59,872 nt of DNA from an uncultured Bacteroidia bacterium (GTDB taxonomy: Bacteria > Bacteroidota > Bacteroidia > Bacteroidales > F082). The stretch covers positions 1 to 59,872 of the forward strand of contig CADCJI010000021.1 in the NCBI GenBank assembly GCA_902801625.1, in the 5' to 3' direction. The notes beneath the pieces are model-generated. The model was not told the DNA's origin. It ran no database searches and was given only the letters and a program-made list of their open reading frames with translations. A program made the translations under genes and the position numbers. Position 1 is the stretch's first letter; every line of letters starts with the position of its first letter. Positions 12,317 to 47,804 of the stretch are shown in pieces.

Positions 12317-12428
12317 GATAAAGTGCTGTTAAGTGAAAATTTTTCTAACATAACAGCATTTTATCTGCAAAAAATGTTTGATAGCGTGCTGCTAAGTCGA
12401 ATTTTTAGGGACTTAACAGCACGCTATC
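12317..12428. repeat. Element A left palindromes (two 49-nt units)
   Basis: Unit 1, 12317-12365: arm GATAAAGTGCTGTTA, 19-nt centre AGTGAAAATTTTTCTAACA, arm TAACAGCATTTTATC. Unit 2, 12380-12428: arm GATAGCGTGCTGCTA, centre AGTCGAATTTTTAGGGACT, arm TAACAGCACGCTATC. Each arm pair has one mismatch. The ATPase stop codon (12424-12426) lies inside unit 2, so the palindrome is part of the coding end. Confidence 0.9.
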
Positions 12429-13848
12429 GTGACTCTTTGAACAAATCATCCATCGTCACTTCCGATTGGATGTTGTTCCAATAAGCATTATGAGCGACAC
12501 CGTATGTGGTAATCATGGTAAGGTGGATGGCTTTGCGGGTTTTGGTAACTTCTTGAAACACAGATTTCCGTCTCCGAAGTTTGTTGTCTTCCTCTTTGTC
12601 AATCCGATAAACATCATCCGAAAACTTCATTTCACAAAGATTGATGACGCCATCGTTACGGTCAAAAAGCAAGTCGATTTGCACACCCTCGTGTTCTTTG
12701 GTAGTTTCGACATGCCATGATTGGGCGTTGCTGATCACTCCAGCGATACCTAATGCAGACCTGATTTGTGGCAAATGCCACAAACATACCCGCTCAAAAG
12801 CCAGTCCTGCCCAAGCTGTGTGGATTGGAGTAGATAAGTTGTTGGTCCAGAAATGGTTGTCGTGGTGGTAGTTGTTCTCAATATAGCGGAAGTAGAACAA
12901 GGTGAAATGATCCATGAGTTGATAAATCGCATCGCGTTTTATCTTGCCAATGACCTGATACTTTCGAATGAAATTGCATTTCTCTAACTCCTCGGTCGCC
13001 TGTGTGAAAACCTTATTGTCGTCAAGTCCAGTGCTTTCGAGCAGCGCTTTTCGGGTCATGCCCGCTTTCTTGGTTGCCAAGGCAGTAACGATGGCAATGT
13101 AAGGTGCAGGTCGCTTGAACAAGGAGGCATATAGAGCATCGAATTCGTCAGCAAGGCGACCGTCCTCTTCAAAAAACAGTCGGTCGATGTTCTGTGCCAG
13201 ACTCTCATTACGTCGCAAGAGGCTCCAATAATAGGGTATGCCGCCCAAGATCATATAGGTTTCCACAAGGTCTTTTCTTGTCATGCTGAGTTTGAGTGAC
13301 TGGGCTAATTGTTCACATTCGTTGAGGTAGAAAGGCTGGAGGTAAATCTTATCAGTCAGTCGGTTGTGCAATCCGCCATGGTCGCGGATGATTTTCTTGA
13401 TAATCCATGAGGTGGCACTACCGCAAACGATGAGAACAATGTCTTTACGCATATTGGCCCAGCCATTCCAAAAATGTTCCAAGGCGCTGATGAGTTGTGA
13501 CTTTGGGGTATCCATCCACGGCAACTCATCCAAAAAGACCACCTTTTTCTTGTCGGGAGAAAGTTCCAAAACGCTTTCCAAGAGGTGGAAGGCCTCAAAC
13601 CATGTGCGCGGCATCTTGCAGCGCTTCAATCCGGCCTTGCGTAGCGATTCGCGAAACTCGGTCAGTTGTTCTTTTTTCGGGGCATTGGCTACACCTGTGT
13701 GATAAAATGCGAAATGGTTCTCAAAGGTCTCTTTGATAAGGTAGGTCTTGCCCACGCGTCGCCTCCCATAAACGGCGCAGAATTGCGATTCGTCTTTCTC
13801 CAACAGTTCAAAGAGTTCTCTTCTTTCTTCGTTGCGTCCAATCAGCAT
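12424..13848 (-). CDS. AAA ATPase with C-terminal nuclease-like (DUF234) domain
   Basis: A 474-residue P-loop ATPase of the archaeal-type ATP_bind family. Visible motifs are Walker A GRRRVGKT (about residues 23-30), Walker B KKVVFLDELPWMD, and sensor-like LIVCGSATSWIIKK. A winged-helix-like middle follows (MTRKALLESTGLDDNKV). The C-terminal part matches DUF234, with QIDLLFDRNDGVINLCEMKF; the D...ExK spacing resembles the PD-(D/E)xK nuclease fold. Substrate is unknown. ATG 13848 (MLIGRNEERREL) is chosen because its paralogue at 46148 starts the same way and an earlier TTG overlaps the -7 box. It stands alone, flanked by palindromes on both sides. Confidence 0.85.
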   Translation of the reverse strand: MLIGRNEERRELFELLEKDESQFCAVYGRRRVGKTYLIKETFENHFAFYHTGVANAPKKEQLTEFRESLRKAGLKRCKMPRTWFEAFHLLESVLELSPDKKKVVFLDELPWMDTPKSQLISALEHFWNGWANMRKDIVLIVCGSATSWIIKKIIRDHGGLHNRLTDKIYLQPFYLNECEQLAQSLKLSMTRKDLVETYMILGGIPYYWSLLRRNESLAQNIDRLFFEEDGRLADEFDALYASLFKRPAPYIAIVTALATKKAGMTRKALLESTGLDDNKVFTQATEELEKCNFIRKYQVIGKIKRDAIYQLMDHFTLFYFRYIENNYHHDNHFWTNNLSTPIHTAWAGLAFERVCLWHLPQIRSALGIAGVISNAQSWHVETTKEHEGVQIDLLFDRNDGVINLCEMKFSDDVYRIDKEEDNKLRRRKSVFQEVTKTRKAIHLTMITTYGVAHNAYWNNIQSEVTMDDLFKESR

Positions 13849-13872
13849 GGCGTTGTTTTTTGATTGATGCTG

Positions 13873-13880
13873 CAAAGAAA
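13873..13880 (-). promoter_or_regulatory. -7-like box for ATPase A
   Basis: The minus strand reads TTTCTTTG followed by CAGC, close to TAnnTTTG, 24 bases upstream of the start. The nearest palindrome begins 13 bases further upstream and would cover the -33 region, which suggests that binding to it could control this gene. Confidence 0.5.
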
Positions 13881-13893
13881 CGCATTTTTTTTC

Positions 13894-14005
13894 GATTATC
13901 TGCTGTTAAGTCGATTTTTTTTGCACTTAGCAGCAGATAATCTGCTATTTTTGATTGATTATCTGCTGCTAACTCGATTTTTTGAGGACTTAGCAGCAGA
14001 TAATC
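13894..14005. repeat. Element A right palindromes (two 49-nt units)
   Basis: Unit 3, 13894-13942: arm GATTATCTGCTGTTA, centre AGTCGATTTTTTTTGCACT, arm TAGCAGCAGATAATC. Unit 4, 13957-14005: arm GATTATCTGCTGCTA, centre ACTCGATTTTTTGAGGACT, arm TAGCAGCAGATAATC. The spacer is 14 bases, as in the left pair. The outer arm bases differ from the left pair, but the inner TGCTGyTA is constant. Confidence 0.9.
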
Positions 14006-14046
14006 GCAATAACATGGGCAGAACAAATGATGTGTTCTGATTATGT

Positions 14047-15072
14047 TTAGGACAGTAACCTGTTCCTAGACCTTGGTCGTTCTTGTTTTCTGATACAATA
14101 ATTTGTTTGATTGATTATTTCTTCATAAGCTTCTGTGTTAAAAATAAACCCTGGATATAGAATAGTAATTTTAGTTTCTTTTCCTGCTTTTGTATTAAGA
14201 TTTCTTCTATCTTTATAAAGAGCATCGAAACCAGCTCCTATTGTGATACTCGTGTAATTCGTGATAATATCTCTATCATGAAAGGCTTTATCATAGTTAT
14301 AATAAACCTCAATAATTATGTGTTCAGAAAGTTTCGGCCGTATTTCTCTAATCATTTCACTTAACAATTGCTTTTTGTTATCCGTCCATCTTTTTATTTC
14401 TTCTAAATTTTTATCATCCCATATTTCCACCCTAGAGTCTTTTTCTGACACAATTGTAAAATGAAAATCGCAACTTAAAGATTGTGGCAATATTAATTTC
14501 AAAACCTCTTTTAGATTTATTTCGTTATATTCTTGTTCGTTTTTAACAACCCAAGGATCAATAAACACCATGGAATTACAGTTGAACAACACCTTGTCCT
14601 CGTTTAGTATATTCGACCAACTGTTTTCTCTGCGCCTTTTAATTGGTTTATTTATTATTCCTTCGAACAGTACTTTTCTTTTCAAAAAATCATCATTTTC
14701 AGTGTGAATGTTTAATACACCATTGTTAACAGCCTCTCTTGTGTGATCAGTTTTCGTAAGAAAAACAGAATTCAAATCGTCAGGATCTGGATTAAAAAGC
14801 CTTTGTTCAATTACTTCACCTTGGATAGTTTGACCATATGGTTTACCACTCCAATTTCTAAGAAACAACATGTATAATTCATCCGGATTCTCGCTGATCT
14901 TTTCAATGCATGTATCTGATTCATAAATGAACTTATTCCACTTTTCCAATATTATTCTATTATCCACTCCCTCTGGATCGAAACTATTTCTACTTAAAAT
15001 GTATTCTTTCGCAAAACAATTCCAAAAGCCTGAGTCAACATAGACTTTTGTCTTAGACATCGTATTATTCAT
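14047..15072 (-). CDS. Unknown protein paired with an ABC-type ATPase
   Basis: A 341-residue protein I do not recognise. It opens with KVYVDSGFWNCFAKEY, reminiscent of the first acidic strand of PIN-like nucleases, but the remaining catalytic acids cannot be assigned by eye. No signal peptide or membrane segment is seen. Its ATG overlaps the stop of the ATPase gene by 4 bases (ATGA), implying translational coupling and a joint function. ATPase/effector pairs with this organisation are common in anti-phage defence. The strongly A/T-rich composition differs from the core genes and suggests acquisition. An alternative start MSKTKVYV is at 15060. Confidence 0.7.
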   Translation of the reverse strand: MNNTMSKTKVYVDSGFWNCFAKEYILSRNSFDPEGVDNRIILEKWNKFIYESDTCIEKISENPDELYMLFLRNWSGKPYGQTIQGEVIEQRLFNPDPDDLNSVFLTKTDHTREAVNNGVLNIHTENDDFLKRKVLFEGIINKPIKRRRENSWSNILNEDKVLFNCNSMVFIDPWVVKNEQEYNEINLKEVLKLILPQSLSCDFHFTIVSEKDSRVEIWDDKNLEEIKRWTDNKKQLLSEMIREIRPKLSEHIIIEVYYNYDKAFHDRDIITNYTSITIGAGFDALYKDRRNLNTKAGKETKITILYPGFIFNTEAYEEIINQTNYCIRKQERPRSRNRLLS

Positions 15073-17168
15073 CGCTTATAGGATTTTATTTGCATCAAAT
15101 CTAATATTAGTTTCTCAGACTCGTCAAAAAAGCCCGAACCAAAAGAATCTTCCAATCTGCCATCTTCTCGGATGCCTATTTTCTTTACTTGTGGCTCTCC
15201 TGTCGGTTGCTCTGTAGGTGAGAAAAGGTAATACATTGAAATACTCTCTCGGTCAACTCCTGTTTGACCTTGTTTCTTTTGTAGGACAAGCGTCATAAAT
15301 CTTCGAATAAGATATTCACTATGTGTCTCGATAATGAAATGAATATTCGCTCTCCTATAAGCTTCCAAAAACATCTCTGCCAAAAGCGATTGATACTTAG
15401 GGTGCAAGTGTGTTTCTGGTTCCTCTATTATAATTGTCGTTGGAGGAACTTCTTTTTCGGGCTTTTCATATAAGTCATAAGCATAGATGGCAGCCTGTAT
15501 TTCAATCAATATAGACACAAATTGAGTGATGCCATACCCTTCGTCAGCAAGCAATCTTCCTTTTTCAAAAGGGAACCCCTTCTGCAATCTTACAAAAAAG
15601 CCAGCACCTTCTTCAGTAGAAAGGATATCTAATCCTTTGCCTAATCCAAATTTTTCAATCCAATCGCTCAAGAATTTTCCTTTTATTGAATCAGTATTAT
15701 CATCATGATGCTTTGTCATAAAAGACTTTTGTGTTCTACAAAATCTACTTAGAGATTTCCCCAAAATATCTTCTGGACTATCAGAATAAATGCGGAGGAC
15801 ATCTGCTCTGTTCGAATTGACATATCGGAAACAATCCTCCTCCAATTCTTTTGGTAACACAACGGCAATCAGCCATTCTGAAAGGTATTCCATGAAAAGT
15901 CTATAGAATACAGGTATGTCGCTTTCAAAAGACAAGTGTCCAACTTTTTCACTCGGCATGTTCGCATTAATGCATAATTCATTAAGCGTGTCAAACACTG
16001 TTCCAAAATCAGCATCATATCCGGTTGGGAAATGACTAAATGGAATCCGATTAAAGGTTCCAGAGTTAATTACTATGTTGAAAAGAAAGAAAAACGATTC
16101 TGTAGAATGTACTTTATCATTACTGTCAAAAACTATAGGTCCATTTTTATTGACTTGAGGGTAGCTTAAACCTTCGTTTTCTTTATGTTTATAATACTCT
16201 AAAAAAGTTTGATATTCAGGTGTCTGCTCAAAATCATCCAAAACCCCAGAGAGCCACTCCTCTATACCTTTGGCATCGTATTTCTCTTTCTGAATTTTGT
16301 TCATTAATGCTTTGCGGGTTTCTGATTTGGAAACGCCTTCCAATAACCTAAACACTGGAAGACATCCCAATGTCTCATATTCAAGCATATCAACCACATC
16401 AGAAGGGTTTATGGTGCTTTGTTCTATTTCATCAATACTGCCAATTGGAATTTTCCGAATATCTGAATAAGCATAGCCTTTTTGTTTCTGTCGTTCTATT
16501 ATCTTTTCAAGTTGTTGTTTTTGCGTTAGAAAAGCAGCCACTTCTTTGGAACTGAAAGCCCAATCACTCCCATATATCAAATCTTTTTCTGGATCATTGA
16601 TGATATCTGCAAGTTCTTCTTTGTCAACCCCTTTAAACACTGTATTTATCTTTTCCAGCAATTGATGAGCGCACAAACTGAAGAAGTCCTCTTTTAATAC
16701 AGAAATGTTTAACTTATCTATGATAAACTTCCAGCCTTCGTTAACAAAACGAATATGAAGTACTTCTGTTCCTTCATTCGTTTTAACCATGATTTCTCTG
16801 AGTCGTCCATCATCTGAAGCGGGGTTTTCTCTTTCAAACAAATAATCAACTGTATAGTTATATTGGCTATAGGATAGAGTGATGTCTCTATTGGAAGAAG
16901 CATCACAATTCAAAATACTGTTGTAATTACCCAACTTCATTTCTTGGTTAGGAAGGCCAAGTGTCAAGTCTTCGGGACGACATTCTCCAGTCCTTTTATA
17001 CTCCGCTTTTATTTTTTGGACAAACTTGCTTAGCAATAGCAAGGATTTGGTCATAGAACTTTTTCCAGAACTGTTGCATCCGGTCAATATGGTGATAGGG
17101 GCAAGTTCGAAAGTCACTCCTTCTTTATCAAACACTTTGAAGTTCTTTACTGTAAATTTCTTTTTCAT
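15069..17168 (-). CDS. AAA ATPase, DUF3696-like (SMC/ABC-type)
   Basis: A 699-residue cytoplasmic ATPase. The start KKFTVKNFKVFDKEGVTFELAPITILTG is followed by Walker A GCNSSGKSS near residue 35. Near residue 590 there is a Walker B TTIIIEEPETHLHPKYQ, then IHFIIETHSEYLIRRF, the H-loop region of AAA_15/AAA_21 and OLD-like ATPases. The C-terminus (GSGFFDESEKLILDLM) fits DUF3696. No TOPRIM domain is evident, unlike OLD or GajA nucleases. ATG 17168 is used; the upstream extension would overlap the -7 box at 17190. It is coupled to the unknown gene downstream. Likely a defence-type module, but this is inferred from context. Confidence 0.85.
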   Translation of the reverse strand: MKKKFTVKNFKVFDKEGVTFELAPITILTGCNSSGKSSMTKSLLLLSKFVQKIKAEYKRTGECRPEDLTLGLPNQEMKLGNYNSILNCDASSNRDITLSYSQYNYTVDYLFERENPASDDGRLREIMVKTNEGTEVLHIRFVNEGWKFIIDKLNISVLKEDFFSLCAHQLLEKINTVFKGVDKEELADIINDPEKDLIYGSDWAFSSKEVAAFLTQKQQLEKIIERQKQKGYAYSDIRKIPIGSIDEIEQSTINPSDVVDMLEYETLGCLPVFRLLEGVSKSETRKALMNKIQKEKYDAKGIEEWLSGVLDDFEQTPEYQTFLEYYKHKENEGLSYPQVNKNGPIVFDSNDKVHSTESFFFLFNIVINSGTFNRIPFSHFPTGYDADFGTVFDTLNELCINANMPSEKVGHLSFESDIPVFYRLFMEYLSEWLIAVVLPKELEEDCFRYVNSNRADVLRIYSDSPEDILGKSLSRFCRTQKSFMTKHHDDNTDSIKGKFLSDWIEKFGLGKGLDILSTEEGAGFFVRLQKGFPFEKGRLLADEGYGITQFVSILIEIQAAIYAYDLYEKPEKEVPPTTIIIEEPETHLHPKYQSLLAEMFLEAYRRANIHFIIETHSEYLIRRFMTLVLQKKQGQTGVDRESISMYYLFSPTEQPTGEPQVKKIGIREDGRLEDSFGSGFFDESEKLILDLMQIKSYKR

Positions 17169-17189
17169 CTTGATGGTGTGTTTATGGTG

Positions 17190-17197
17190 CAAAGATA
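17190..17197 (-). promoter_or_regulatory. -7 promoter box for the ATPase pair
   Basis: The minus strand reads TATCTTTG followed by CACC, a perfect TAnnTTTG, 21 bases upstream of the ATPase start. It gives the ATPase/unknown pair its own promoter, separate from the YaaW operon that ends at 17248. Confidence 0.65.
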
Positions 17198-17247
17198 TGT
17201 TTTTTCTTTTTATGGTATTCAATTGTTGTGGCTCAATGTGCGGCTTT

Positions 17248-17991
17248 TCAACCGCACATCGAATACTCACCTTGCTCCAGCAGTTTATACTGCATCTTAG
17301 CCCGCATGTAGGCCACCTGAATCACTGCCGGAATGGTGACCCTATAGGCAGGACCGGCAATGTCGAGTAACGTCCACACTGCTGTCACCACCCAGCCGAT
17401 AGGTCCGGCAAAGATACACAGCGAGCGAGTGAGGGCTGCGTTGGCTGAGAGCGACAAACCGCGTCCCAACAGGAGTCGACAGATTGCGTTCGCTACAATT
17501 ACCGCTATTTTATAGCTTGCAAATCCGCCTTTCTTGATGGCAATCTGAAGGGCAGCTATCATGGCCTGCTTGCCGAATCCTTTGGTTGGGATGTTCATCT
17601 CGTCCATAAGTGATTTCAATTGCTCTTCGGTCATTTGGTCGAGTGATGATAGCAGCACCTTCTCCAAAAGATTGCGTTCAATCGACTCGACCGATGCGTA
17701 CTTGCTGAAGTTAACCTTCATCTTCTTACACACGTCAATAAGTACAGTCTTGTAGGATGGGCCGCCACCTCTGAAGATGTTGCGGAACGTGTTGCCTCCA
17801 AAGCACAGGAGTTCTTCGGCGATCTCGTCATACATCATGGGCAGTCTATCAGGGTAGTAGCTGCGGTAGTTTTGTGTGTAGGACAGGCATTCGGTAGCGC
17901 GGAAGTTTCCGTTCTTGTTCTTGGTGAGGTAGTCAACCAATACTTGAAGGTCGGCTGAATCGGCGCTTTTTAAAAATTCTAAGTCTTTCAT
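17248..17991 (-). CDS. YaaW-like (UPF0174/DUF3944) protein
   Basis: A 247-residue protein starting MKDLEFLKSADSADLQVLVDYL, the N-terminal signature of YaaW/DUF3944 proteins, followed by YDEIAEELLCFGGNTFRNIFRGG and YKTVLIDVCKKMKVNF, as in the ubiquinol-cytochrome-c-chaperone-like core. The C-terminal 80 residues are hydrophobic and glycine-rich (IAVIVANAICRLLLGRG, LCIFAGPIGWVVTAVW), suggesting membrane association. The function of YaaW is unknown. It is the last gene of a four-gene minus-strand operon with a DUF697-like and a DUF3825 protein. Confidence 0.85.
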   Translation of the reverse strand: MKDLEFLKSADSADLQVLVDYLTKNKNGNFRATECLSYTQNYRSYYPDRLPMMYDEIAEELLCFGGNTFRNIFRGGGPSYKTVLIDVCKKMKVNFSKYASVESIERNLLEKVLLSSLDQMTEEQLKSLMDEMNIPTKGFGKQAMIAALQIAIKKGGFASYKIAVIVANAICRLLLGRGLSLSANAALTRSLCIFAGPIGWVVTAVWTLLDIAGPAYRVTIPAVIQVAYMRAKMQYKLLEQGEYSMCG

Positions 17992-18018
17992 CTTTATAGT
18001 GTTTTTGGGTTTATTGTG

Positions 18019-18327
18019 TTATGCCGCTTTTTGGGCTGTGTTCTTGATTCTGACTTTGGCGCTGGTCTGACGGACAACTTTCCTCACCGTGCCTTTCGAC
18101 ATGTTGAAGAAAGTGCGGTTTTCGCGCCTCGGTTTTGCATTCTCCCGTTGGAGTTGCTTGATGATTTGATCTTTGTTTGACACCTTCTGTTTCAGCAGTT
18201 CTCCCTTAAGAATGCTGAGTTCTTTGTGCAAGCGCTTCACTTCTTGCTTTAAGAATGCGTTTTCTCGAATGAGAGTGTCGTTTGATAGGGCTGCGCCCTC
18301 AATGAATTCTTGTTTCTTGTTGTTCAT
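18019..18327 (-). CDS. Small coiled-coil basic protein
   Basis: A 102-residue protein with a heptad-like helix at about residues 20-65 (RENAFLKQEVKRLHKELSIL), then a basic tail rich in Arg/Lys. No domain is recognised. It starts 84 bases after the DUF697-like gene and ends 27 bases before the YaaW-like gene, so it is probably part of the operon. A scaffold or nucleic-acid-binding role is possible but not shown. Confidence 0.65.
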   Translation of the reverse strand: MNNKKQEFIEGAALSNDTLIRENAFLKQEVKRLHKELSILKGELLKQKVSNKDQIIKQLQRENAKPRRENRTFFNMSKGTVRKVVRQTSAKVRIKNTAQKAA

Positions 18328-18361
18328 ATTATTCCTTTTTTTGTGTGTTGTTTAACTTGTT

Positions 18362-18388
18362 CGGAAGCGTGGCTATTATCAGCCACGC
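18362..18388. terminator. Perfect hairpin inside the YaaW operon
   Basis: CGGAAGCGTGGCT and AGCCACGCTTCCG form a perfect stem with a short loop (ATTATC region), between the DUF697-like gene and the coiled-coil gene. It has no T-run on the minus strand, so it may be a processing or attenuation hairpin rather than a full stop. Confidence 0.5.
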
Positions 18389-18411
18389 TTCCGTTTCGGT
18401 TGCGAAAGGCT

Positions 18412-18780
18412 TTATGCGGCCATAGACCTCTGGTCGAAGTCGTTGGCCATGGCCCAGCCCGTAGCCTCAGCTATGCCGACGCTGATGCCAGCCGACAAAG
18501 CTTGTCCCGCAAACGGGATGAGCTTGCACAGCTCTTTCGCGAGTGCTTTGATGGGTTGTTTGAGGAGAATTCTCCTGAGGGTGGCCACTGCGATGCCTTT
18601 GGCCGCTGCGGCAGGCTTGTCTTCGCCGAAGACTCCAGCAAGTTCGCGGGCCATCATGGCAAGGGCTGTGACATCGGCGGCAAGTCCTGTGCCAGGAATA
18701 GGACTGAGGTTGCCTGCGCCAGCGGCTGCAGACCAGGAATGGATGATGCGTTTGCATCTTTGTCTTTGAGCTTCTGTCAT
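18412..18780 (-). CDS. DUF697-like small hydrophobic protein
   Basis: A 122-residue protein with IIHSWSAAAGAGNLSPIPGTGLAAD and MMARELAGVFGED, then ILLKQPIKALAKELCKLIPFAGQALSAG (described in pieces). This pattern of proline/glycine motifs between hydrophobic helices resembles DUF697, usually found at the C-terminus of small GTPases and thought to associate with membranes. Here it is free-standing with no GTPase domain. It lies between the DUF3825 gene (37 bases upstream) and the coiled-coil gene. Confidence 0.7.
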   Translation of the reverse strand: MTEAQRQRCKRIIHSWSAAAGAGNLSPIPGTGLAADVTALAMMARELAGVFGEDKPAAAAKGIAVATLRRILLKQPIKALAKELCKLIPFAGQALSAGISVGIAEATGWAMANDFDQRSMAA

Positions 18781-18817
18781 ATCTTTATTGTTTTTGGAGT
18801 GTGTGTTCTTATTTCAT

Positions 18818-19996
18818 TTATATTTTGTTTGGGTTCAACCATGACTCGTCAGGCTTGGCGATGAGTCTTGCGTTTTGATAGGCTGGGTCTAATGGGATGA
18901 TGGTCTCAGGCTTGTATATCTTGTGCATCTTGTCTGGCGTCAGGATTAGAGCAAAGTCTGGATGATCGCTATAGATGCCGTTCAAATAGATGGGCATCAA
19001 AAGTTGAATGATGTCGGTCTGTGGGCGGTACATGGGCGCGACGATGTTGTGGTTGCGTTTTGCGAGGATGACTGCCATGTCGATGGCTCGGTCAAGCATG
19101 CTTGCTAAAACTGCAGATGCTTTGCCTTGGTGCTCCAATGGGAAACGATTGCGTCGTTTGTCGATGATATGCTCGAAGGTGCTGAAGTCCCTCTCGACGA
19201 CCCATGAGGTTTGGAATATGACATCGTTGACGTCCTCGAAGTACTGGGGAGGTTGTGGGTTGACAGTACCATCAAATCCCAATTCGGTGAGGCCCCCTTT
19301 GACCATCTTTGGATTGTGGATTAGCGGCTCTCCTGTTGAATAGAATTCGACACGTCCGGCAATCAACACATCGTGGAAGTACTTGTCAAGCAAGTTGGAG
19401 TTGAAAAGAGCGGTTTTGCGGTTGTTTGAATACACCACCTTATCGGGTTTGTCACTACGGGATTCCTTGACCAATTTGTTCAAGGTGTTTTCAAGGTACG
19501 ATTTCAGAATGGGGTGATGTATCTGTGATTGACGGCTGTTGTATTCCCAGGTTTCAGGGATGATGGCATTCGCAATTTCGTCAAGGAAGTCCTGGCCTTG
19601 TTGATAATTGTCGAAGTACATCCTGCCGATGGAAAAACTCCTGGCAACCTTGACATATTTCTTGAAGTCGTCAGAGGTTCCCCATGATACGCCTTTGAAC
19701 ACATTGGAGTCGGGTGACTTTTGGAACCAGCCATAGATAATTTCTCCTTGGCTGTTCCTTAGTGGGAGGGCGAATCGGATGTACATTGCTTCGGCTTCGC
19801 ATACCCGTTGACCGTCGCGAGAAGGATATCCAGCGTGGTTCAAAAACTCTTTGGTGGCTTCCTCGACCATCTGATCAAGTTGGGCTCTGTTTATGGATTG
19901 TGTGTTGCCTGCGACAATCACACTTAACTCTTTTACGCAGGAGGCAATGTTCTCAACATAGCCGAGGGCCAAAAGGCCAGATTTTTGTTTCTTCAT
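18818..19996 (-). CDS. DUF3825 domain protein
   Basis: A 392-residue protein whose second half matches DUF3825: KTALFNSNLLDKYFHDVLIA, a RRNRFP motif in the middle, and the end IIQLLMPIYLNGIYSDHPDF...LDPAYQNARLIAKPDESWL. The first 150 residues contain EAMYIRFALPLRNSQGEIIYG and are unassigned. DUF3825 domains often accompany RNA-binding (cold-shock or LOTUS) domains; I see none here. It is the first gene of a four-gene operon, with a TAnnTTTG box upstream and a WYL regulator reading the other way. Confidence 0.82.
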   Translation of the reverse strand: MKKQKSGLLALGYVENIASCVKELSVIVAGNTQSINRAQLDQMVEEATKEFLNHAGYPSRDGQRVCEAEAMYIRFALPLRNSQGEIIYGWFQKSPDSNVFKGVSWGTSDDFKKYVKVARSFSIGRMYFDNYQQGQDFLDEIANAIIPETWEYNSRQSQIHHPILKSYLENTLNKLVKESRSDKPDKVVYSNNRKTALFNSNLLDKYFHDVLIAGRVEFYSTGEPLIHNPKMVKGGLTELGFDGTVNPQPPQYFEDVNDVIFQTSWVVERDFSTFEHIIDKRRNRFPLEHQGKASAVLASMLDRAIDMAVILAKRNHNIVAPMYRPQTDIIQLLMPIYLNGIYSDHPDFALILTPDKMHKIYKPETIIPLDPAYQNARLIAKPDESWLNPNKI

Positions 19997-20020
19997 ATCA
20001 TTTTTATTGTCATGTTATTT

Positions 20021-20041
20021 GATGCGGGAGTTTCCCGCATC
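20021..20041. promoter_or_regulatory. Leader hairpin before DUF3825 operon
   Basis: GATGCGGGA and TCCCGCATC with loop GTT lie between the -7 box (20053-20060) and the start codon, so in the 5' leader of the operon transcript. It could be an attenuator, a protein-binding site or an mRNA stabiliser. Confidence 0.5.
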
Positions 20042-20052
20042 ATTTTCGGCTG

Positions 20053-20060
20053 CAAAGATA
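20053..20060 (-). promoter_or_regulatory. -7 promoter box for DUF3825 operon
   Basis: The minus strand reads TATCTTTG then CAGCCG, a perfect Bacteroidota -7 box, 57 bases before the start codon. Confidence 0.65.
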
Positions 20061-20198
20061 CAACTTTTTTTAATCGGTGTATGCGATTTTGAGATGTTGT
20101 AATTTGTGAAAATTTGCTTCACAAATTAAATCTTTGACAAATAGTAAGAAAAAAATATATATTTTCTAAATAATATGCGATTTAATCTCAAATATAAG

Positions 20199-20206: not shown

Positions 20207-20227
20207 CAGCACTAAATCTAATAAACT

Positions 20228-21349: not shown

Positions 21350-21353
21350 TAAT

Positions 21354-40520: not shown

Positions 40521-42079
40521 CGTATCATTATCTTATTCGTGTAAACATTTCCATCCGCATCCATAATGCGCACCAGATAAACCCCTTCCACCAATCCACT
40601 CAAATCAATCTCATTCGTCCTCCGAACCTTCTTCACCATCTGCCCAAGGGCATTGTAAACCCGCACCTCATCAGCAACAACACCTTCAATGCAAACAAGC
40701 CCATTGGCAGGATTGGGGAAAACAGCAACCTTTGTTCCATTTTCATTTTCGCCAACACCTTCCGTCTGTTTACAATACACAATGTTGTATGATTTTGAGG
40801 TTTCACCGTCGCTATAAACCGCCAAAACATGGTAATTCAATCGCCCTCCGCCTGAGTAGTTGTCGGTGTATTCCGTTTCGGTAATCAAGTCTTCACTGAC
40901 CAAGGTCACACCTCTATAAATCTGATAACCAACAAGCACCTCATCGGGTTTCAATTCTGGCTCATTCCAACGAAGCGTAACGCTGTTTTCACCAAAATTT
41001 GTTATCTCACAATCCATAACAGGCGTATGGTGTTCCAACCAATCAGGCTTGAAATCGTGGAAATAGGTGGTTACCAAAGTATCGCCGTAGGAACGGTAAT
41101 AGGCAATATAGCATCTGTCGCCTTGGGGTTCTTCAACTGGCGTACCCCACTCGGTAAAATTGTATGAAAGCGTGTCAAGGCAAACATAGAACACACCTGG
41201 CTCCCTGTCCAAAAACACAATTCCTCCATTCCTTATGTCAAAAAGGCAAAATATACTGTCATCAACTATAATGTCAATCGGATTCGATTCGGAATCAATC
41301 AAGGTTCGGAAATTGGTACCGTAATCGTCGCTGTAATATAATTTGGTGAATTTAGATGAATATCTTTGGCCGTATAACTCGCCTTCCATCGGCCCAATTC
41401 CAATATGATAGTTCCTCAATTCGTGAGGAAATGTCAGCGTATCTACGGTTTGGGAAAAATCTGTCGTGTAGAACCACCTGTCCGTACCTCCAATTTCTTT
41501 GTAATAGAACTCTCCGTGATTCCAACCTGCAACCTGTTTTGTGTAGACAGGTGTCGTAAAAGTGATGATTGTATCATCGAAGTGGGTGCCGTAATCATAA
41601 CTTGCAATAAAGGAATAATTATACTCCTCGTCAGGTTCTAACTTGACAATCTCACCAGGCACATTCGCGAAACACCAATACGATGGTGGAGATGGAACCA
41701 TATAATCGTCAACCGCTCTCCAAGTTTGTCCACAATCCTCGGTTACAAGGACTTTCTCCGCGACAGAATAATCCAAGTTGTAGAAATGTCCAGGAGCCCC
41801 ATCATATAACACTTCTCCCATTCCCGACATGGTGGCAGTGTCAATCACCCATGTTAAATCGTCGTAAGTGGCGATAACATCAATATGGGCACCATGGTCG
41901 GTGAATCTGCAAAGATTGTATTTGTATCCCATAAAGGTATATTCATACCATTGTTTTTGGATGATGATTTCGCCTGGTTCCGTACCGATGAAAAGTTGCT
42001 CGGAGGATTGCGCTTGCATCGTCACCTCTCCCGTCATCAGCAGGAGCGTAAATAGGGTGTAAAGTCTTGTTGCTTTCAT
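40517..42079 (-). CDS. T9SS-sorted surface protein
   Basis: A 520-residue secreted protein: signal peptide (LYTLFTLLLMTGEVTMQAQ), beta-rich middle with aspartate box-like phrases (YYSDDYGTNFRTL, VTEDCGQTWRAVDD) reminiscent of BNR/sialidase-type propeller repeats, a fibronectin III-like block near 360-440, and a type A sorting domain from about residue 450 (VAVFPNPANGLVCIEG) ending VEGVYLVRIMDADG. The sorting domain is closely related to that of the next gene. No sialidase catalytic residues can be assigned. A TAATTTTG box lies at 42108 upstream. Confidence 0.83.
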   Translation of the reverse strand: MKATRLYTLFTLLLMTGEVTMQAQSSEQLFIGTEPGEIIIQKQWYEYTFMGYKYNLCRFTDHGAHIDVIATYDDLTWVIDTATMSGMGEVLYDGAPGHFYNLDYSVAEKVLVTEDCGQTWRAVDDYMVPSPPSYWCFANVPGEIVKLEPDEEYNYSFIASYDYGTHFDDTIITFTTPVYTKQVAGWNHGEFYYKEIGGTDRWFYTTDFSQTVDTLTFPHELRNYHIGIGPMEGELYGQRYSSKFTKLYYSDDYGTNFRTLIDSESNPIDIIVDDSIFCLFDIRNGGIVFLDREPGVFYVCLDTLSYNFTEWGTPVEEPQGDRCYIAYYRSYGDTLVTTYFHDFKPDWLEHHTPVMDCEITNFGENSVTLRWNEPELKPDEVLVGYQIYRGVTLVSEDLITETEYTDNYSGGGRLNYHVLAVYSDGETSKSYNIVYCKQTEGVGENENGTKVAVFPNPANGLVCIEGVVADEVRVYNALGQMVKKVRRTNEIDLSGLVEGVYLVRIMDADGNVYTNKIMIR

Positions 42080-42375
42080 TTCAAAGTGTTTTTCTGTGTT
42101 ATGCAGGCAAAATTATTCAAAAAAACACCAAAAAAGCTATCTGTCAAGCCCTAAAACGGTTTTGTCCCTATTATTTTCGGTTTTGAAATTTTCAATGTAT
42201 TGAAATTCAAATGTTTATGGAAAATCGGATTTTGGGTTTGTCCCTATTTTTTTCTTGGTTTCAAGAGAAAAGACGAAACAATATACTGTCTGCAGCGGCC
42301 ATAGATCCCAAGCCACCGCACTGCCAGCGCAGGGATGACATGTCCGCTGCAGCCTTGATGCTGAAGGTCAATAAC

Positions 42376-42411
42376 GCAAAAGACCCACCCCTTTCGAGGC
42401 AGGTCTTTTGC
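42376..42411. terminator. Probable terminator downstream of groEL
   Basis: Perfect 10-bp stem GCAAAAGACC/GGTCTTTTGC, loop of 16 bases, T-rich flank on both strands. Confidence 0.6.
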
Positions 42412-42426
42412 TCGTTTTCTATTTAG

Positions 42427-42486
42427 GAACACGGATCCCACGGATTTAACGGAAATCCATCCGTGTCATCCGTGCTATCCGTGTTC
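42427..42486. repeat. ATCCGTG inverted repeat
   Basis: Repeated ATCCGTG words face CACGGAT words on the other arm, giving an imperfect palindrome between the terminator and the groEL stop codon. Confidence 0.65.
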
Positions 42487-42508
42487 AATGATTATCCGCG
42501 TTTCAGGA

Positions 42509-44023
42509 TTACATCATCCCGTCCATTCCGCCGCCCATGGGCATAGGAGGTGTGGGAGGCGTAGGCTCCTTGTGGTTGCTGATGACGCACTCGGTGGTCA
42601 GCAGCATACCGGCGATGGAAGCAGCGTTCTCCAAAGCGACTCTCGACACCTTGACGGGGTCAATGACACCAGTGCTGAGCAAGTTCTCATAGACCTCAGT
42701 GCGGGCATTGAAACCGAAGTCGTTCTTGCCTTCCATGACCTTGTTGACCACGACCGAGCCTTCCAAGCCGGCGTTTTCAACAATCTGACGCAGCGGCTCT
42801 TCCAAGGCGCGCTTGATGATGGCGATACCCGTGGTCTCGTCCTCGTTTTCACCCTTCATCTTCTCGATGGCCTTGATGGCGCGGATGAAACCGACACCGC
42901 CGCCGGGGATGATACCCTCTTCGATGGCAGCGCGGGTGGCGTTCAAAGCGTCCTCAACGCGGTCTTTCTTTTCCTTCATCTCGACCTCGGAAGCGGCGCC
43001 CACGTAAATGACTGCCACGCCACCGGCCAACTTGGCCAAGCGCTCTTGCAGTTTCTCGCGGTCGTAGTCGCTCGTGGTGGTCTTGATTTGGGCCTTGATT
43101 TGGTTGGTGCGGCCTTCGATGTCCTTCTTGGCACCGTGACCGTTCACGATGGTGGTGTTGTCCTTGTTGATGCTGACCTTATCGGCCTGACCCAGCATTT
43201 GCAGGGTGGCATCCTCAAGTTTGTAGCCCTTCTCTTCGCTGATGACAGTTCCACCAGTCAGAATGGCGATGTCTTCCAGCATCTCTTTACGACGGTCACC
43301 GAAGCCAGGAGCCTTGACAGCAGCGACTTTCAGCGAGCCACGCAGACGGTTGACCACCAAGGTAGCCAAAGCTTCACCATCGATGTCCTCAGCGATGATG
43401 ATGAGGGCACGACCCGTTTGCAAGGTCTTTTCGAGCACGGGCAGCAAGTCCTTCATCACGGAGATCTTCTTGTCGTAGATCAAGATGTAAGGATTCTCAT
43501 AAACGGCTTCCATCTTCTCGGTGTTGGTGACGAAGTAAGGCGAGATGTAGCCACGGTCGAACTGCATACCTTCGACGACGTCGACATAGGTGTTGATGCC
43601 CTTGGCATCCTCAACAGTGATGACACCTTCTTGTTTCACCTTGCTCATAGCCTCGGCGATGAGACCGCCGATTTCGCTGTCGTTGTTGGCAGAGATGGTA
43701 GCCACTTGTTTAATCTTCTCGTTGTCGCCATCGACCTTCACTGACATCTTCTTCAGCGAAGCAACCACAGCGGCAACAGCCTTGTCGATACCGCGCTTCA
43801 GGTCGAGCGGGTTGGCACCGGCGGTGACGTTTTTCAGACCCGTAGCCACGATGCTCTGAGCCAATACGGTGGCGGTGGTGGTACCATCACCAGCGAGGTC
43901 GTTGGTCTTGGAAGCGACTTCCTTCACCAACTGGGCGCCCATGTTCTCAACGGGGTCGATGAGTTCGATTTCCTTGGCGACCGTCACACCGTCCTTGGTG
44001 ATTTGGGGAGCGCCATACGACTT
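42509..44023 (-). pseudogene. groEL: Chaperonin GroEL, 5'-truncated
   Basis: About 505 codons match GroEL from [20 protein letters not shown] through [11 protein letters not shown] (ATP site) to the GGM-rich end [12 protein letters not shown]. The first ~41 residues, including the nucleotide-binding LGPKG loop, are absent. The reading frame upstream of codon 42 runs into a palindromic repeat and a TAG at 44075-44077. Only 69 bases separate it from groES, too few for the missing codons. The only in-frame start is a GTG at 43987. The remaining sequence is intact with no frameshift. Either an assembly error or a real disruption; if this is the only copy, a real break should be lethal. Confidence 0.88.
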
Positions 44024-44057
44024 ATTTGTTGACTGTTGAAGTGTTGAATTGTTGTTT

Positions 44058-44087
44058 TGTAGAGACGTAGCGCGCTACGTCTTTACA
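44058..44087. repeat. GTAGAGACG-type palindrome fused to groEL
   Basis: Core AGACGTAGCGCGCTACGTCT (44063-44082) is a perfect 20-base palindrome, extended by TGTA/TACA to 30 bases with one mismatch. It lies immediately after the groES stop codon and upstream of the broken groEL start. Confidence 0.88.
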
Positions 44088-44092
44088 CCAGA

Positions 44093-44371
44093 TTAGATGA
44101 TTGCAATGACATCGTTTTCACGCATAATCATATAATCTTTGCCGTCGAGGTGGAACTCGGTGCCAGCGTATTTGCCATAGATGACAGTGTCGCCGACCTT
44201 CAGGGTCATTTGGTTGTCTTTCGTGCCAGGACCCACGGCTACGACGGTTCCTTGTTGGGGTTTCTCTTTGGCGGTGTCGGGGATGATGATACCGCTAGCG
44301 GTTTTCTGTTCGGCGGCGGCGGGCTCGATGACCACGCGGTCAGCCAAAGGTTTAATTGATAATTTTGCCAT
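44093..44371 (-). CDS. groES: Co-chaperonin GroES
   Basis: A 92-residue co-chaperonin, full length. It starts [20 protein letters not shown], with the mobile-loop region [16 protein letters not shown] and the conserved GTVVAVGPG. It caps the GroEL cavity during protein folding. groES-groEL order is normal, but groEL downstream lacks its start (see that entry). No TAnnTTTG or CIRCE element was found upstream; the 240-base upstream region instead contains repeat family 3. Confidence 0.95.
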
Positions 44372-44423
44372 TTTATTTGATGTTTAATTGTTGATTGTTT
44401 AATCGTTGAACTGTTGTCGCTTC

Positions 44424-44503
44424 GCGTCATTGCGAGGAGGAACGACAAAGCAATCTAGAATTATAGTTCTTTGTCTGGACTGCTTCGTGCCTCGCAGTGA
44501 CGC
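44424..44503. repeat. Dispersed repeat family 3, second copy
   Basis: GCGTCATTGCGAGG (44424-44437) and CCTCGCAGTGACGC (44490-44503) are the outer arms; AAAGCAATCTAGA lies inside. Related to the copy at 28380-28473. Confidence 0.8.
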
Positions 44504-44607
44504 AAAGCGCGTCAAAAAGACGACGCCTTTGTTAGTCATAATTCGTGCCAAAGTGGAAAATGGCAGGGTTTTGTCAGTCGGGGTGACAAAGTGACACAAA
44601 AAGGGCT

Positions 44608-44615
44608 TATCTTTG
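44608..44615 (+). promoter_or_regulatory. -7 promoter box for the MATE gene
   Basis: TATCTTTG followed by CGCTC, 18 bases before the ATG at 44634. An in-frame TTG start at 44613 overlaps the box and is therefore rejected. Confidence 0.6.
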
Positions 44616-44633
44616 CGCTCGAATTCGACAACC

Positions 44634-46025
44634 ATGTCCAACATTAACGACGAGCGGAAACTCAACGAGCGGTATAAGATGATGACGGAGCAGCCCGTCA
44701 GGCGGCTGATCCTCAAGATGGCTGTGCCGACCATCATTAGCATGCTCGTGACTACCATTTACAATATGGTGGATTCGTTTTATGTGGGTCATCTGAGCAC
44801 CGAAGCCGTGGCAGGCGTGGGCGTTTCGTTTGCCTACATGGCCTTTATTAATGCTTGCGGATTCTTCTTTGGGCATGGCTCGGGCAACTACATCTCACGT
44901 GCCTTGGGAGCCAAGCAGGGACAGAATGCGGGGCGCATGGCTGCCACGGGGTTCTTCTCCCCTTTGATTCTGGGCGCTATTGCAGGCCTCATCTGCATGT
45001 TTTTCATATCGCCTTTGTCGCGGGCCATGGGCGCCACTGACAGCATCCTCCCCTACGCCAACAACTACCTCCGCTTCATCCTCCTTGCCACGCCTTTCAT
45101 GATGTCGTCGCTGACGCTCAACAACCAACTGCGGTTGCAAGGCAACGCCCGCTTCGGCATGATTGGCATCGCCTCGGGTGCCATCCTCAACATCATTCTC
45201 GACCCCATCTTTATCTTTGTGCTTGACTTGGGTGTCAGTGGGGCTTCGTTGGCCACGGCAGTGAGCCAGTGCTTCGGCTGGTGCGTGCTGCTTTGGGGCA
45301 CTTCGCGACCCGGCAATGTGCATATCAAGTTCAAGAACTTCACTCCTACCCTATACTATTACATAGAAATCACGCGGGGCGGCTTGCCTTCGTTGGCGCG
45401 ACAGGCGTTGTCGGTAGTGGCCACCATCAGCCTCAACCGAATGGCTGTGCATTATGCCTTGCCCGGCAATGAAGCCTCCACCGTTGCGGCCTTCACCATC
45501 GTTTCGCGTATCACCCTGTTCTGCTTCGCCATCGTCATCGGGTTTGGACAAGGGTTCCAGCCCGTGTGTGGCTATAACTACGGTGCCAAACTCTATGCAC
45601 GTGTCAAGGAGAGTTATATGTTTTGCATCACGCTTTCCACGGCATTTCTAATTGTCTTAGCCACCGTAGTCTATATCTTCGCTCCCGACATCATCTCATG
45701 GTTCCGTGGCGAGGACCCCGAGCTCATCCGCGTGGGCAGTCAGGCCTTGCGCTGGCAGTGCATTGCTTTCCCGCTGATGGGTATGTGCACTGCGACCAAC
45801 ATGCTGTTCCAGAACATCGGATACACTTGGCAGGCCACACTGCTCTCGATGTGCCGCCAAGGCTTGTATTTCCTGCCTGCGGTCTTCATCATGTCGTGGC
45901 TTTGGGGCATCACGGGTCTTGAAGCCGCCCAAGCCGTCGCTGATGTTTGCACCTTCTTGACCTCGTTGCCGTTTGCTGTGTGGATTAGTCGGATTCTCAC
46001 CGTGAAGTCACAGCATAATGCGTGA
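44634..46025 (+). CDS. MATE family efflux transporter
   Basis: A 463-residue multidrug and toxic compound extrusion transporter with about 12 hydrophobic helices. Family features include LILKMAVPTIISMLVTTIYN, MVDSFYVGHLSTEAVAGVGV in the first half, LRLQGNARFGMIGIASGAILNIILDP (in pieces) and VIGFGQGFQPVCGYNYGAKL in the second. It exports cations or drugs using a Na+ or H+ gradient; the substrate is unknown. It converges with ATPase element C at 46090. Confidence 0.93.
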   Translation: MSNINDERKLNERYKMMTEQPVRRLILKMAVPTIISMLVTTIYNMVDSFYVGHLSTEAVAGVGVSFAYMAFINACGFFFGHGSGNYISRALGAKQGQNAGRMAATGFFSPLILGAIAGLICMFFISPLSRAMGATDSILPYANNYLRFILLATPFMMSSLTLNNQLRLQGNARFGMIGIASGAILNIILDPIFIFVLDLGVSGASLATAVSQCFGWCVLLWGTSRPGNVHIKFKNFTPTLYYYIEITRGGLPSLARQALSVVATISLNRMAVHYALPGNEASTVAAFTIVSRITLFCFAIVIGFGQGFQPVCGYNYGAKLYARVKESYMFCITLSTAFLIVLATVVYIFAPDIISWFRGEDPELIRVGSQALRWQCIAFPLMGMCTATNMLFQNIGYTWQATLLSMCRQGLYFLPAVFIMSWLWGITGLEAAQAVADVCTFLTSLPFAVWISRILTVKSQHNA

Positions 46026-46089
46026 AGATGGAAGACAAATTCAGCCGAATGAGGTTCTGAAAACAATAAATGGTTCCGAAAAAAAGTTC

Positions 46090-46138
46090 CCATACTCAGC
46101 GGAAAGTGGAAAAATTTGATAGATTCCGCTGAGTATAG
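46090..46138. repeat. Element C left palindrome
   Basis: Arm ATACTCAGCGGAA (46092-46104), 19-nt centre AGTGGAAAAATTTGATAGA, arm TTCCGCTGAGTAT (46124-46136). It differs from the right copy by one base in the centre and a slip at the outer end. Confidence 0.9.
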
Positions 46139-46147
46139 GTATGCTTT

Positions 46148-47566
46148 TTATTTTTCAAAAAGAGCTTCTGAGGTGATTACTGCTTGAAATTCATCAGAAT
46201 ATGGATTTGGCTTCACACCACTGGCTGAAACAAGGATAAGATGGACAGCTTTGTCAGTGCCAGTCTCGGCGATGAGGCGGGAACGGCGGTTCTGGACTTT
46301 CTGTTCTTCCTCAGATGTCATTTCGTATGGTTGCTTGGTGTACTTCATCTCGCAGATGTCGATAACATTGTCATCGCGATCGATAAGCAAATCTATCTGC
46401 GCGCCTTTTCCATCAGAGGTGGCAGGCTGATGCCAGGAGCACACACGGCTAATAATACCGAAAATACTGAGGGCTTTCTTAATCTGAGTGACATGCAGAA
46501 GACAAACACGCTCAAAAGCGAGTCCGCACCAGTTATAATAAATTGGCGAACCCATCTGACGCGACCAAAAATACTCATCGCCGCCAGTGTTCTGTTGTAT
46601 GAAACGATAATAGAAGAGTGTGTAAGAGTCGATGAGTTGGAAGACAGCACTTTTTATTTTCAGCCCGAAGTTGGTGTACTTTCTGACAAAACCACAAGCT
46701 TCGAGGTCTTGCAATATCTCGGAAAGCCGTCCGTTGTCTTGGAGATGTGCCTCGCTGATGATTTCATCACGGGTCATGCCGATACGTTTGCTGCCTAAAG
46801 TCTGAACGACAGTAATGTAAGGGTCGGGATTTTTGAACAGCGAAGCGTAGAGTGCATCAAATTCATCGTGGAGTTCCCCATCGGGATTAAAAAAAAGATT
46901 GTCGATATTCTGGGCAAGACTAAAGCTGCGCTCGAGTTTTGACCAATAATAAGGAATGCCACCCATAATCATGTAACACTCCATAAGTTGTCGGCGGTTC
47001 ATACCAAGTTTGCGGTGGGTGGCATACCGCTCGCATTCGTTGAGCGTGAATGGCTGCAGGTGAATCTTTGTATTGACACGGTTATGCAAGCCTCCTTTGT
47101 TTTTGAGTATTTTCTTGATAATCCAAGAGGTGGCACTACCGCAAACGATAAGCACCACGTCCTTACGGGCCGACGCCCATCCGTTCCAGAAGTTCTCGAG
47201 TGCGGGAATAAATCCGGAACGCTGAGTGTCCATCCAAGGCAGCTCATCAATGAAGATGATTTTTTTGGATTCCGTTGACTGGCGTATGATCTCCTTTAGA
47301 GCTTCGAAAGCATCGAGCCATGTGCGAGGCAGGGTGGCTTTTTTGAGCCCGTACTCGCGTAGGGAAAGGCGCCACGCTGCGAGTTGTTTCTTCATAGGAG
47401 ACTTGGCCAGTCCAGTATGGTAGAAGGTAAAACTATTGTTGAATGTTTCGCGTATCAAGTAGGTTTTTCCGACACGACGACGGCCATAAACTGCCACAAA
47501 CATCGAGTCCTCTTCGCCAATGGCCTGAAGCAGGCGTTGTTGTTCTTTTTCTCTTCCAATAAGCAT
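46148..47566 (-). CDS. AAA ATPase with C-terminal nuclease-like (DUF234) domain
   Basis: A 472-residue paralogue of the gene at 12424: Walker A GRRRVGKT, Walker B KKIIFIDELPWMD, LIVCGSATSWIIKK and ECYMIMGGIPYYWSKLE all match it. The C-terminal DUF234 part contains AQIDLLIDRDDNVIDICEMKY, again with the D...ExK arrangement of PD-(D/E)xK nucleases. ATG 47566 (MLIGREKEQQRL) matches the paralogue's start and falls after the -7 box. It is monocistronic and flanked on both sides by the same palindrome. Function unknown; possibilities are discussed in the findings. Confidence 0.87.
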   Translation of the reverse strand: MLIGREKEQQRLLQAIGEEDSMFVAVYGRRRVGKTYLIRETFNNSFTFYHTGLAKSPMKKQLAAWRLSLREYGLKKATLPRTWLDAFEALKEIIRQSTESKKIIFIDELPWMDTQRSGFIPALENFWNGWASARKDVVLIVCGSATSWIIKKILKNKGGLHNRVNTKIHLQPFTLNECERYATHRKLGMNRRQLMECYMIMGGIPYYWSKLERSFSLAQNIDNLFFNPDGELHDEFDALYASLFKNPDPYITVVQTLGSKRIGMTRDEIISEAHLQDNGRLSEILQDLEACGFVRKYTNFGLKIKSAVFQLIDSYTLFYYRFIQQNTGGDEYFWSRQMGSPIYYNWCGLAFERVCLLHVTQIKKALSIFGIISRVCSWHQPATSDGKGAQIDLLIDRDDNVIDICEMKYTKQPYEMTSEEEQKVQNRRSRLIAETGTDKAVHLILVSASGVKPNPYSDEFQAVITSEALFEK

Positions 47567-47586
47567 AACGATAGTGTTTTTCGTCT

Positions 47587-47594
47587 GCAAAGAT
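47587..47594 (-). promoter_or_regulatory. -7 promoter box for ATPase C
   Basis: The minus strand reads TATCTTTG then CAGACG, 20 bases before the ATG. The right palindrome begins 13 bases upstream of the box, the same distance as in element A. Confidence 0.65.
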
Positions 47595-47607
47595 ATGAAA
47601 AAATATG

Positions 47608-47656
47608 CCTATACTCAGCGGAAAGTGTAAAAATTTGATAGATTCCGCTGAGTATA
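47608..47656. repeat. Element C right palindrome
   Basis: Perfect 15-base arms CTATACTCAGCGGAA and TTCCGCTGAGTATAG around the 19-nt centre AGTGTAAAAATTTGATAGA. Confidence 0.93.
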
Positions 47657-47659
47657 GAC

Positions 47660-47721
47660 ACTTTTTTCTGTTTTTCGAAAAGAGCTTCAGAAGTGATTAC
47701 AGCTTGAAATTCAACGGAAAA
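47660..47721 (-). pseudogene. 3' remnant of a second DUF234 ATPase gene
   Basis: The minus strand encodes SVEFQAVITSEALFEK, nearly identical to the C-terminus of the intact ATPase (SDEFQAVITSEALFEK), but the rest of the gene is missing and the stop codon is lost. It lies in the same position relative to the 47608-47656 palindrome as the intact gene end does to the 46090 copy. Confidence 0.85.
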
Positions 47722-47757
47722 GGAAAGGATTTCATTTTATTCTGATCCTAAAATTCC

Positions 47758-47804
47758 CAAAAGTGTCCATAACTCGAAATTTTGTTGAGATATGGACACT
47801 TTTG
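47758..47804. repeat. Solo palindrome with the same architecture
   Basis: Arms CAAAAGTGTCCATA and TATGGACACTTTTG (14 bp, perfect) around a 19-nt centre ACTCGAAATTTTGTTGAGA. The arm sequence differs from elements A and C but the centre is related. No gene adjoins it on the right. Confidence 0.8.

Follow-up and report, generated by a model that had tools for sequence, protein, structure and literature searches.

The window, as we call the whole 59,872-nucleotide (nt) stretch analysed here (contig CADCJI010000021.1, from an uncultured Bacteroidia bacterium), encodes on its minus strand two ATPases of the PDC-S27 family, A (12424–13848) and C (46148–47566), which are bounded by 49-nt palindromes. 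Seven such dyads are present: four flank ATPase A, two flank ATPase C and one stands alone. Downstream of A lie an outer (12317–12365) and an inner copy (12380–12428, overlapping the stop codon), and upstream of it an inner (13894–13942, directly upstream of a putative promoter) and an outer copy (13957–14005). ATPase C has one palindrome downstream (46090–46138) and one upstream (47609–47657), the latter directly upstream of a putative −7 box (TATCTTTGC). The solo palindrome, termed D, is at 47758–47804 (47757–47805 as a 49-nt match). All seven units align end to end to a covariance model consisting of a 15-nt arm, a 19-nt centre and a second 15-nt arm (E 6e-13 to 9e-7, better strand), and the next-best match in the window has an E value of 0.034. 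The 49-nt units that a preliminary description of this DNA had placed around both ATPases are thus confirmed. Its further claim that arms agree within an element holds for the inner part of the A arms (TGCTGyTAAGT, with single changes) but not for their outer bases, which differ between the upstream and downstream pairs.

The two proteins, which are 53% identical, combine an AAA+/STAND-like ATPase domain (ATPase_2, PF01637; 57.3 and 57.8 bits for A and C against a cut-off of 33.2) with a winged helix and a PD-(D/E)XK-like C-terminus. Both match the PADLOC profile PDC-S27 (PDLC04984) at full length, residues 2–470, with E values of 1.6e-204 and 6e-199. The earlier assignment of both genes to the DUF234 type is abandoned, as a threshold of E ≤ 10 still gave no PF03008 (DUF234) match for A or C. 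The DUF234 cut-off is passed by three further family genes of the window genome, one close relative narrowly (24.2 versus 22.5 bits) and two distant ones (23–29% identity) clearly. An AlphaFold2 model of ATPase C (predicted local distance difference test 92.7, predicted template modelling score 0.90) comprises the ATPase domain, a helix-turn-helix (helices 266–273 and 280–290) with a wing (strands 294–297 and 308–311) and a C-terminal domain, in which D392, E406 and K408 lie on strands 389–397 and 401–408 in a predicted PD-(D/E)XK-like arrangement. No variation was seen in these three residues or in either Walker motif across 67 sequences. The nearest folds found by Foldseek were the Pyrococcus STAND ATPase 2qen (E 1.6e-11, template modelling score 0.48 by query) and then ORC/Cdc6 proteins, including the origin-bound 2qby, and a sequence search for solved structures gave no match. 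A Pfam scan of A and C detected neither a HUH-tyrosine nor a DDE-type transposase domain.

Palindromes accompany the gene in relatives

Relatives comprised the best 80 of 247 from public genomes, whose record titles name Bacteroidales, Lachnospiraceae, Coriobacteriaceae, Kiritimatiellae, Verrucomicrobia and others, together with eight copies from the window genome (A and C included). From these 88 sources, 87 loci with an intact gene enter the locus counts, L028 being left out for lack of an intact frame. The covariance model was built from 35 sites, three of them from the window, so that independent support comes from the relatives. A site was found upstream of the gene (within 300 bp) in 63 of the 87 loci and downstream (within 150 bp) in 23, all of which have both. 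Nearly all sites in these loci (105 of 107) fall within the near flanks so defined, which make up 38.7 of 548 kb, and 81 of the 105 are upstream; one of the two remaining sites sits directly upstream of a second ATPase gene. An upstream site is present in 33 of the 57 loci from which no training site was taken, although some of these are closely related to training loci. The window genome holds 14 sites at E ≤ 0.02, 13 of them no more than 300 bp from a family gene and one in the promoter position of a RhuM gene.

In the covariance model 93% of cells are paired, with changes on both sides in 14 of the 15 pairs. Information along the site peaks at positions 5, 15, 25, 35 and 45, about every 10 bp, with positions 11 and 39 also high in between; this spacing is as would be expected for binding on one face of the DNA. 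G-U pairs are rare, a figure biased by the Watson–Crick matching used in site choice.

A phylum-wide search placed a close family member (E ≤ 1e-100) in 15 of 296 genomes, that of the window included, and at E ≤ 1e-120 one occurs in 68 of the 99 genomes of the genus. Seven genomes (G324, G355, G358, G359, G360, G364 and G384) each gave 40–64 family candidates at first look, not all of them scored, which amounts to a large within-genome expansion; the same first-look search gave no family match in other genomes of the genus. In a distant clade (f18/g49; L229–L235 and L237), the sole close ATPase copy has one in-frame TGA in eight of nine genomes, which may reflect decay, recoding or a match that extends beyond the stop.

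A winged-helix residue covaries with an arm base

In the ATPase C model, residue 277 lies just before the recognition helix of the winged helix, and its identity follows base 12 of the palindrome arm. In the training set, D at this residue goes with G in 33 of 36 cases, N with T in 16 of 16, and S, T, G or a gap with C in 13 of 13. The rule was correct in 25 of the 27 blind-test cases that it covers. Five loci (L031, L048, L071, L151 and L232), whose half-site was judged misread, were left out of the training-set counts, the training side of the blind test, the region coupling scan and the check on ATPase D described below; with all rows kept, the code reads D to G in 102 of 109, N to T in 30 of 31, S to C in 9 of 10 and T to C in 9 of 10. 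ATPase C itself has D277, which predicts G12, as found. Base 12 is the same on both arms in 173 of 178 loci with a half-site.

Shared ancestry was taken into account in a tree test. With all rows, 19 of 28 base-12 changes fall on the same branch as a residue-277 change (P = 4.4e-16), the next-best of 437 residues reaching P = 2.4e-5; with the same five loci and L293 left out, all six of which are restored in the full run, 19 of 25 changes are shared (P = 3.4e-17). Among 461 windows of 12 residues, that at 274–285 couples best to arm bases 9–14 (r 0.41, s.d. 0.084). Together, these results lend strong support to a model in which the winged helix would bind the palindrome and residue 277 would read arm base 12, which would give each lineage its own arms. 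The proposal that each family ATPase recognises its own palindrome, made at first from the conserved centre and element-specific arms, is thereby well supported, as judged from covariation between protein and site; the predicted link between arm identity and the DNA-binding region of the protein was found as the coupling of residue 277 to base 12.

A comparison of arms for signs of incompatibility was discarded: a 7-nt core was common to 0 of 87 within-genome pairs and to 142 of 3,234 between-genome pairs, orthologues confound the latter figure, and nothing was drawn from it.

The same data bear on whether the palindromes could be RNA hairpins or terminators that no protein recognizes. They are strong inverted repeats with T-rich loops, and some stand just past stop codons. 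A residue-to-base code speaks against such an account, as do the roughly 10-bp information periodicity (positions 11 and 39 off phase), the rarity of G-U pairs (subject to the bias of site choice) and the upstream location of 81 of the 105 near sites. Given the code, the information spacing and the G-U rarity, we judge it very unlikely that an RNA role is their only one.

The upstream palindrome lies at a likely promoter or close to the start codon

In Bacteroidales, the upstream palindrome is directly upstream of a likely −7 box, as judged by the promoter consensus. In several loci of Lachnospiraceae and Coriobacteria it ends about 5–15 bp ahead of the start codon. Because of this position, the upstream palindrome is likely to serve as an operator for autoregulation.

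An operator might be all that it is. The family would then encode an autoregulated protein of defence or other benefit to the host, extra palindromes would be by-products of tandem duplication and deletion, and the genes would spread by homologous recombination and horizontal transfer. The greater frequency of the upstream site (63 versus 23 of 87) and its place at the promoter or close before the start codon suit this explanation, the link of residue 277 to base 12 is just as compatible with an operator, PADLOC lists the family as candidate defence system PDC-S27, and the remnants of gene 3′ ends beside palindromes, described below, suggest tandem copies. We regard an exclusive operator role as a real possibility but a rather doubtful one, on account of the comparisons between loci that follow.

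Cassettes appear to be gained, lost and exchanged at palindromes

In many compared pairs, related genes in differing contexts share a block of sequence that starts just beyond the upstream palindrome and ends at the stop codon or the downstream palindrome. Between −102 and +77, for example, L020 and L021 share 99% identity, whereas their flanks, over the stretches compared, are unrelated. A clean pair of full and empty alleles is provided by L156 (flank–P1–gene–P1–P2–flank) and L184 (flank–P1–P2–flank), which differ by one unit of palindrome plus gene. The solo palindrome of L173 joins the left arm of the upstream palindrome of L034 to the centre of its downstream palindrome, and looks like the product of a single crossover within the palindrome, which could have run in either direction. 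L181 and L153 share a palindrome and the right flank but differ in cargo, a DUF4143 ATPase at L181 and a PDC-S27 ATPase at L153.

At the A locus, synteny between the window and L172 stops at the outer edge of the outer upstream palindrome, and no clean full/empty pair was found, since the compared relatives without ATPase A have other downstream neighbours. L148/L175 was considered as a further full/empty example and set aside because its interior is also inverted. Beside ATPase A, at 14047–17991, are genes matching AAA_15/DUF3696 and DUF3944, possibly a small defence-type cluster, which are not at that place in L355 and L356.

The C locus was surveyed across the genus by its MATE neighbour, a search that matched 38 of 99 genomes; 20 returned loci, that of the window included, were examined. 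Twelve are empty, the MATE gene directly meeting the convergent gene (GH95 by Pfam in the window), as checked by DNA homology in three and by eye in the rest. ATPase C occupies four loci (the window and three relatives), and two others (G351 and G352) carry, between two palindromes, a different ATPase, D, which is 47% identical to the best query and matches PDLC04984 at E 6.7e-204. The code holds for ATPase D too: its 277 region, aligned as a gap, is of the serine type, and base 12 of its palindrome is C. Of the last two loci, G319 contains two D palindromes, both solo, and G358 a further ATPase next to which no site was detected. A 16-nt sequence (CTYACCGyGAAGTCAC) found once at the junction of the 12 empty loci is present on both sides of the insert in the window, in G351 and G352 and in G319, as a candidate target-site duplication; its copies in the window are at 45996–46011 and 50890–50905 on the plus strand, around a 4.9-kb insert (46026–50889). 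As this insert holds further genes too, the C locus grew by several events.

Within the insert, the upstream palindrome of C abuts a copy of about 55 nt of a family gene 3′ end (47665–47719, minus strand, 85% identical to the 3′ end of C), and the same remnant was found by tblastn in L015 and L016. The solo palindrome at 47758–47804 is identical to the downstream palindrome of ATPase D in G351 and G352 and is followed by a probable short 3′-end remnant of a D-type gene (47805–47840, minus strand), like that after the upstream D palindrome in the same two genomes. Given this match and the series of C-locus states in relatives, the solo unit and the short piece are best read as the relic of a D element. 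Behind palindrome D, at 47841–47960 (also in L341), lies a hairpin-like repeat (GGTGCTTCGACAGGCTCAGCAACC...), which in G319 occurs twice, always behind a palindrome.

These comparisons support a cassette that would be bounded by palindromes and gained, lost and exchanged there. The preliminary description had proposed mobility of the palindrome-bounded unit and a search for empty sites in relatives; the L184/L156 pair, the 12 empty and otherwise variably filled C loci and the near-identical copies in unrelated contexts all point to such mobility. An operator alone would not account for the matching palindromes at the two ends, for homology that stops at a palindrome or at the stop codon when the surroundings are unrelated, for the presence of distinct ATPases at a single locus, or for what looks like a crossover within a palindrome.

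Solo sites were surveyed further in a census of 15 genomes of the genus, that of the window among them, which found at least 78 sites, a lower bound because no more than 150 candidates per genome were scored and a similar search of the window genome missed the site at 12317. On at least one arm, 15 of the 33 census sites that stand alone match the 8-nt core of an ATPase-linked site exactly; for the left arm alone the figure is 13 of 33, against about 4 expected from shuffled cores. One solo site (G007:C129) has a short piece of a family gene by tblastn. A few solo sites are demonstrably relics, and three or so of those without an ATPase-linked core look like ordinary hairpins.

Solo sites, the code that links protein to site and the invariance of the PD-(D/E)XK-like residues would also be expected if the palindrome were the target of the nuclease, which would cut incoming DNA or empty alleles for self/non-self discrimination or in a homing-like manner. 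Yet the gene keeps an intact site on either side, and intact solos occur in the same genome; cleavage would then be suicidal unless controlled, and the window genome retains both the solo D site and the RhuM-promoter site. We consider a cleavage target improbable, and the earlier suggestion of a homing site is not upheld, since a classical homing site would be interrupted by the insertion, whereas here a complete palindrome remains at each end of the gene.

Discussion

On balance we lean, though not far, towards PDC-S27 genes forming cassettes with self-recognized palindromes that act as operators and at which the protein promotes its own movement. Small cassettes bounded by full 49-bp palindromes would encode these ATPases, each consisting of palindrome, promoter and gene, with a second palindrome in a good part of cases. 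The winged helix would bind the palindrome, residue 277 reading base 12 of lineage-specific arms, and the upstream palindrome, at or just before the promoter, would probably be the operator of its own gene. Recombination within or at palindromes would exchange cassettes and leave solo palindromes and 3′-end remnants behind. The protein itself may promote this movement: an ATP-dependent, ORC/Cdc6-like complex might assemble on two palindromes and nick or cut nearby through the PD-(D/E)XK-like domain, which would make the cassette a selfish one-gene element that lacks a known transposase. That the ATPase-nuclease drives the movement of its cassette is our best guess.

A number of observations weigh against this proposal. 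No downstream site was detected in 64 of 87 loci and no upstream site in 24, and only 22 of 36 full-length genes in the 15 census genomes have a site at E ≤ 0.01; the model may miss diverged sites. Outer arm bases 2–8 couple best to the ATPase domain rather than to the winged helix, for inner bases 16–18 the wing window leads an ATPase-domain window narrowly (r 0.28 versus 0.26), and for base 13 residue 277 is not among the top residues in the tree test. Palindromes also occur away from family genes, which in part bears out an earlier-stated ground for doubt: for 33 of the 78 census sites found, the profile search gave neither a family gene nor a fragment of one within 300 bp, 15 of these 33 carrying the ATPase-linked core noted above. 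The RhuM-associated site of the window genome (L111:5281–5329; C23:20280–20328) is an intact 49-nt unit some 50 bp ahead of the gene, which belongs to the RhuM family, and at L181 (G007) and L166 (G010) AAA_14/DUF4143 (PDC-S01) genes are enclosed by palindromes of this type, as though these sites also served another ATPase family. The 16-nt duplication was looked at in one locus only. The evidence for the L173 crossover consists of arm differences and one base of the centre, and the L173 solo is 2.1 kb away from the right flank, with other DNA in between. RecA could delete between direct repeats and spread DNA carrying them, and neither a circle nor a de novo insertion was observed.

At a place related to that of the RhuM gene, G012 (L194) has a site with an ATPase 3′ remnant and G002 (L167) a site alone. 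The DUF4143 family was rejected as a general carrier of the palindrome, with strong sites in only 2 of 30 loci and a third, L225, at E 0.0025.

PDC-S27 is an abundant candidate defence gene of rumen bacteria and archaea, and the family is already catalogued. The passages that treat it describe an ATPase fused to a PD-(D/E)XK domain, with 3,503 archaeal and 4,562 bacterial instances (PMC12988326) and 2,865 in cattle rumen genomes (PMC13356809); antiviral activity is stated there to be unvalidated for most PDCs (PMC12988326). The PDC-S27 passages of these two papers give no binding site, code or mobility, the stem 'palindrom' is absent from the main text of PMC12988326, and in the searchable open-access literature we found no description of a palindrome, code or cassette for the family. 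Thousands of family genes are counted as antiviral defence without a tested function, and a predictive code, a defined 49-bp site and full and empty alleles make the family directly testable. Should the cassette prove to move itself, a selfish element would be entered as immunity in defence inventories, and a recombination enzyme built from an ORC/Cdc6-like ATPase and a nuclease would be a new principle, with a specificity that looks easily reprogrammed. It is conceivable, if somewhat short of an even chance, that PDC-S27 represents a new class of selfish element that has a single gene and no transposase. Its ORC/Cdc6-like ATPase-nuclease would recognize the complete terminal palindromes through a code of one residue to one base, these palindromes would serve as operator and recombination site alike, and a new arm would found a non-cross-reacting element.

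The system described here agrees with catalogued PDC-S27 in its full-length profile match and adds to it the palindrome, the code and the cassette. PDC-S01 (AAA_14/DUF4143) resembles it in its ATPase and PD-(D/E)XK architecture, as far as the passages on it go (PMC12988326). Two PDC-S01 genes stand between the same palindromes (L181 and L166), but the palindrome is no general feature of that family. ORC/Cdc6 proteins and Pyrococcus 2qen are the nearest folds of the ATPase C model, and we know of no nuclease domain or flanking-site cassette in ORC/Cdc6. IS200/IS605 and RAYT/REP are likewise single-gene elements whose enzyme recognizes element-specific palindromes beside its own gene; they use a HUH-tyrosine transposase and single-stranded hairpins, whereas here the protein is of the ATPase_2/winged-helix/PD-(D/E)XK-like type and there are signs of double-stranded recognition. 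In phage repressor–operator immunity groups, residues of the recognition helix set operator specificity and co-resident systems have different operators; in PDC-S27, by contrast, the palindromes additionally delimit the cassette, and the protein has an ATPase and a nuclease-like domain.

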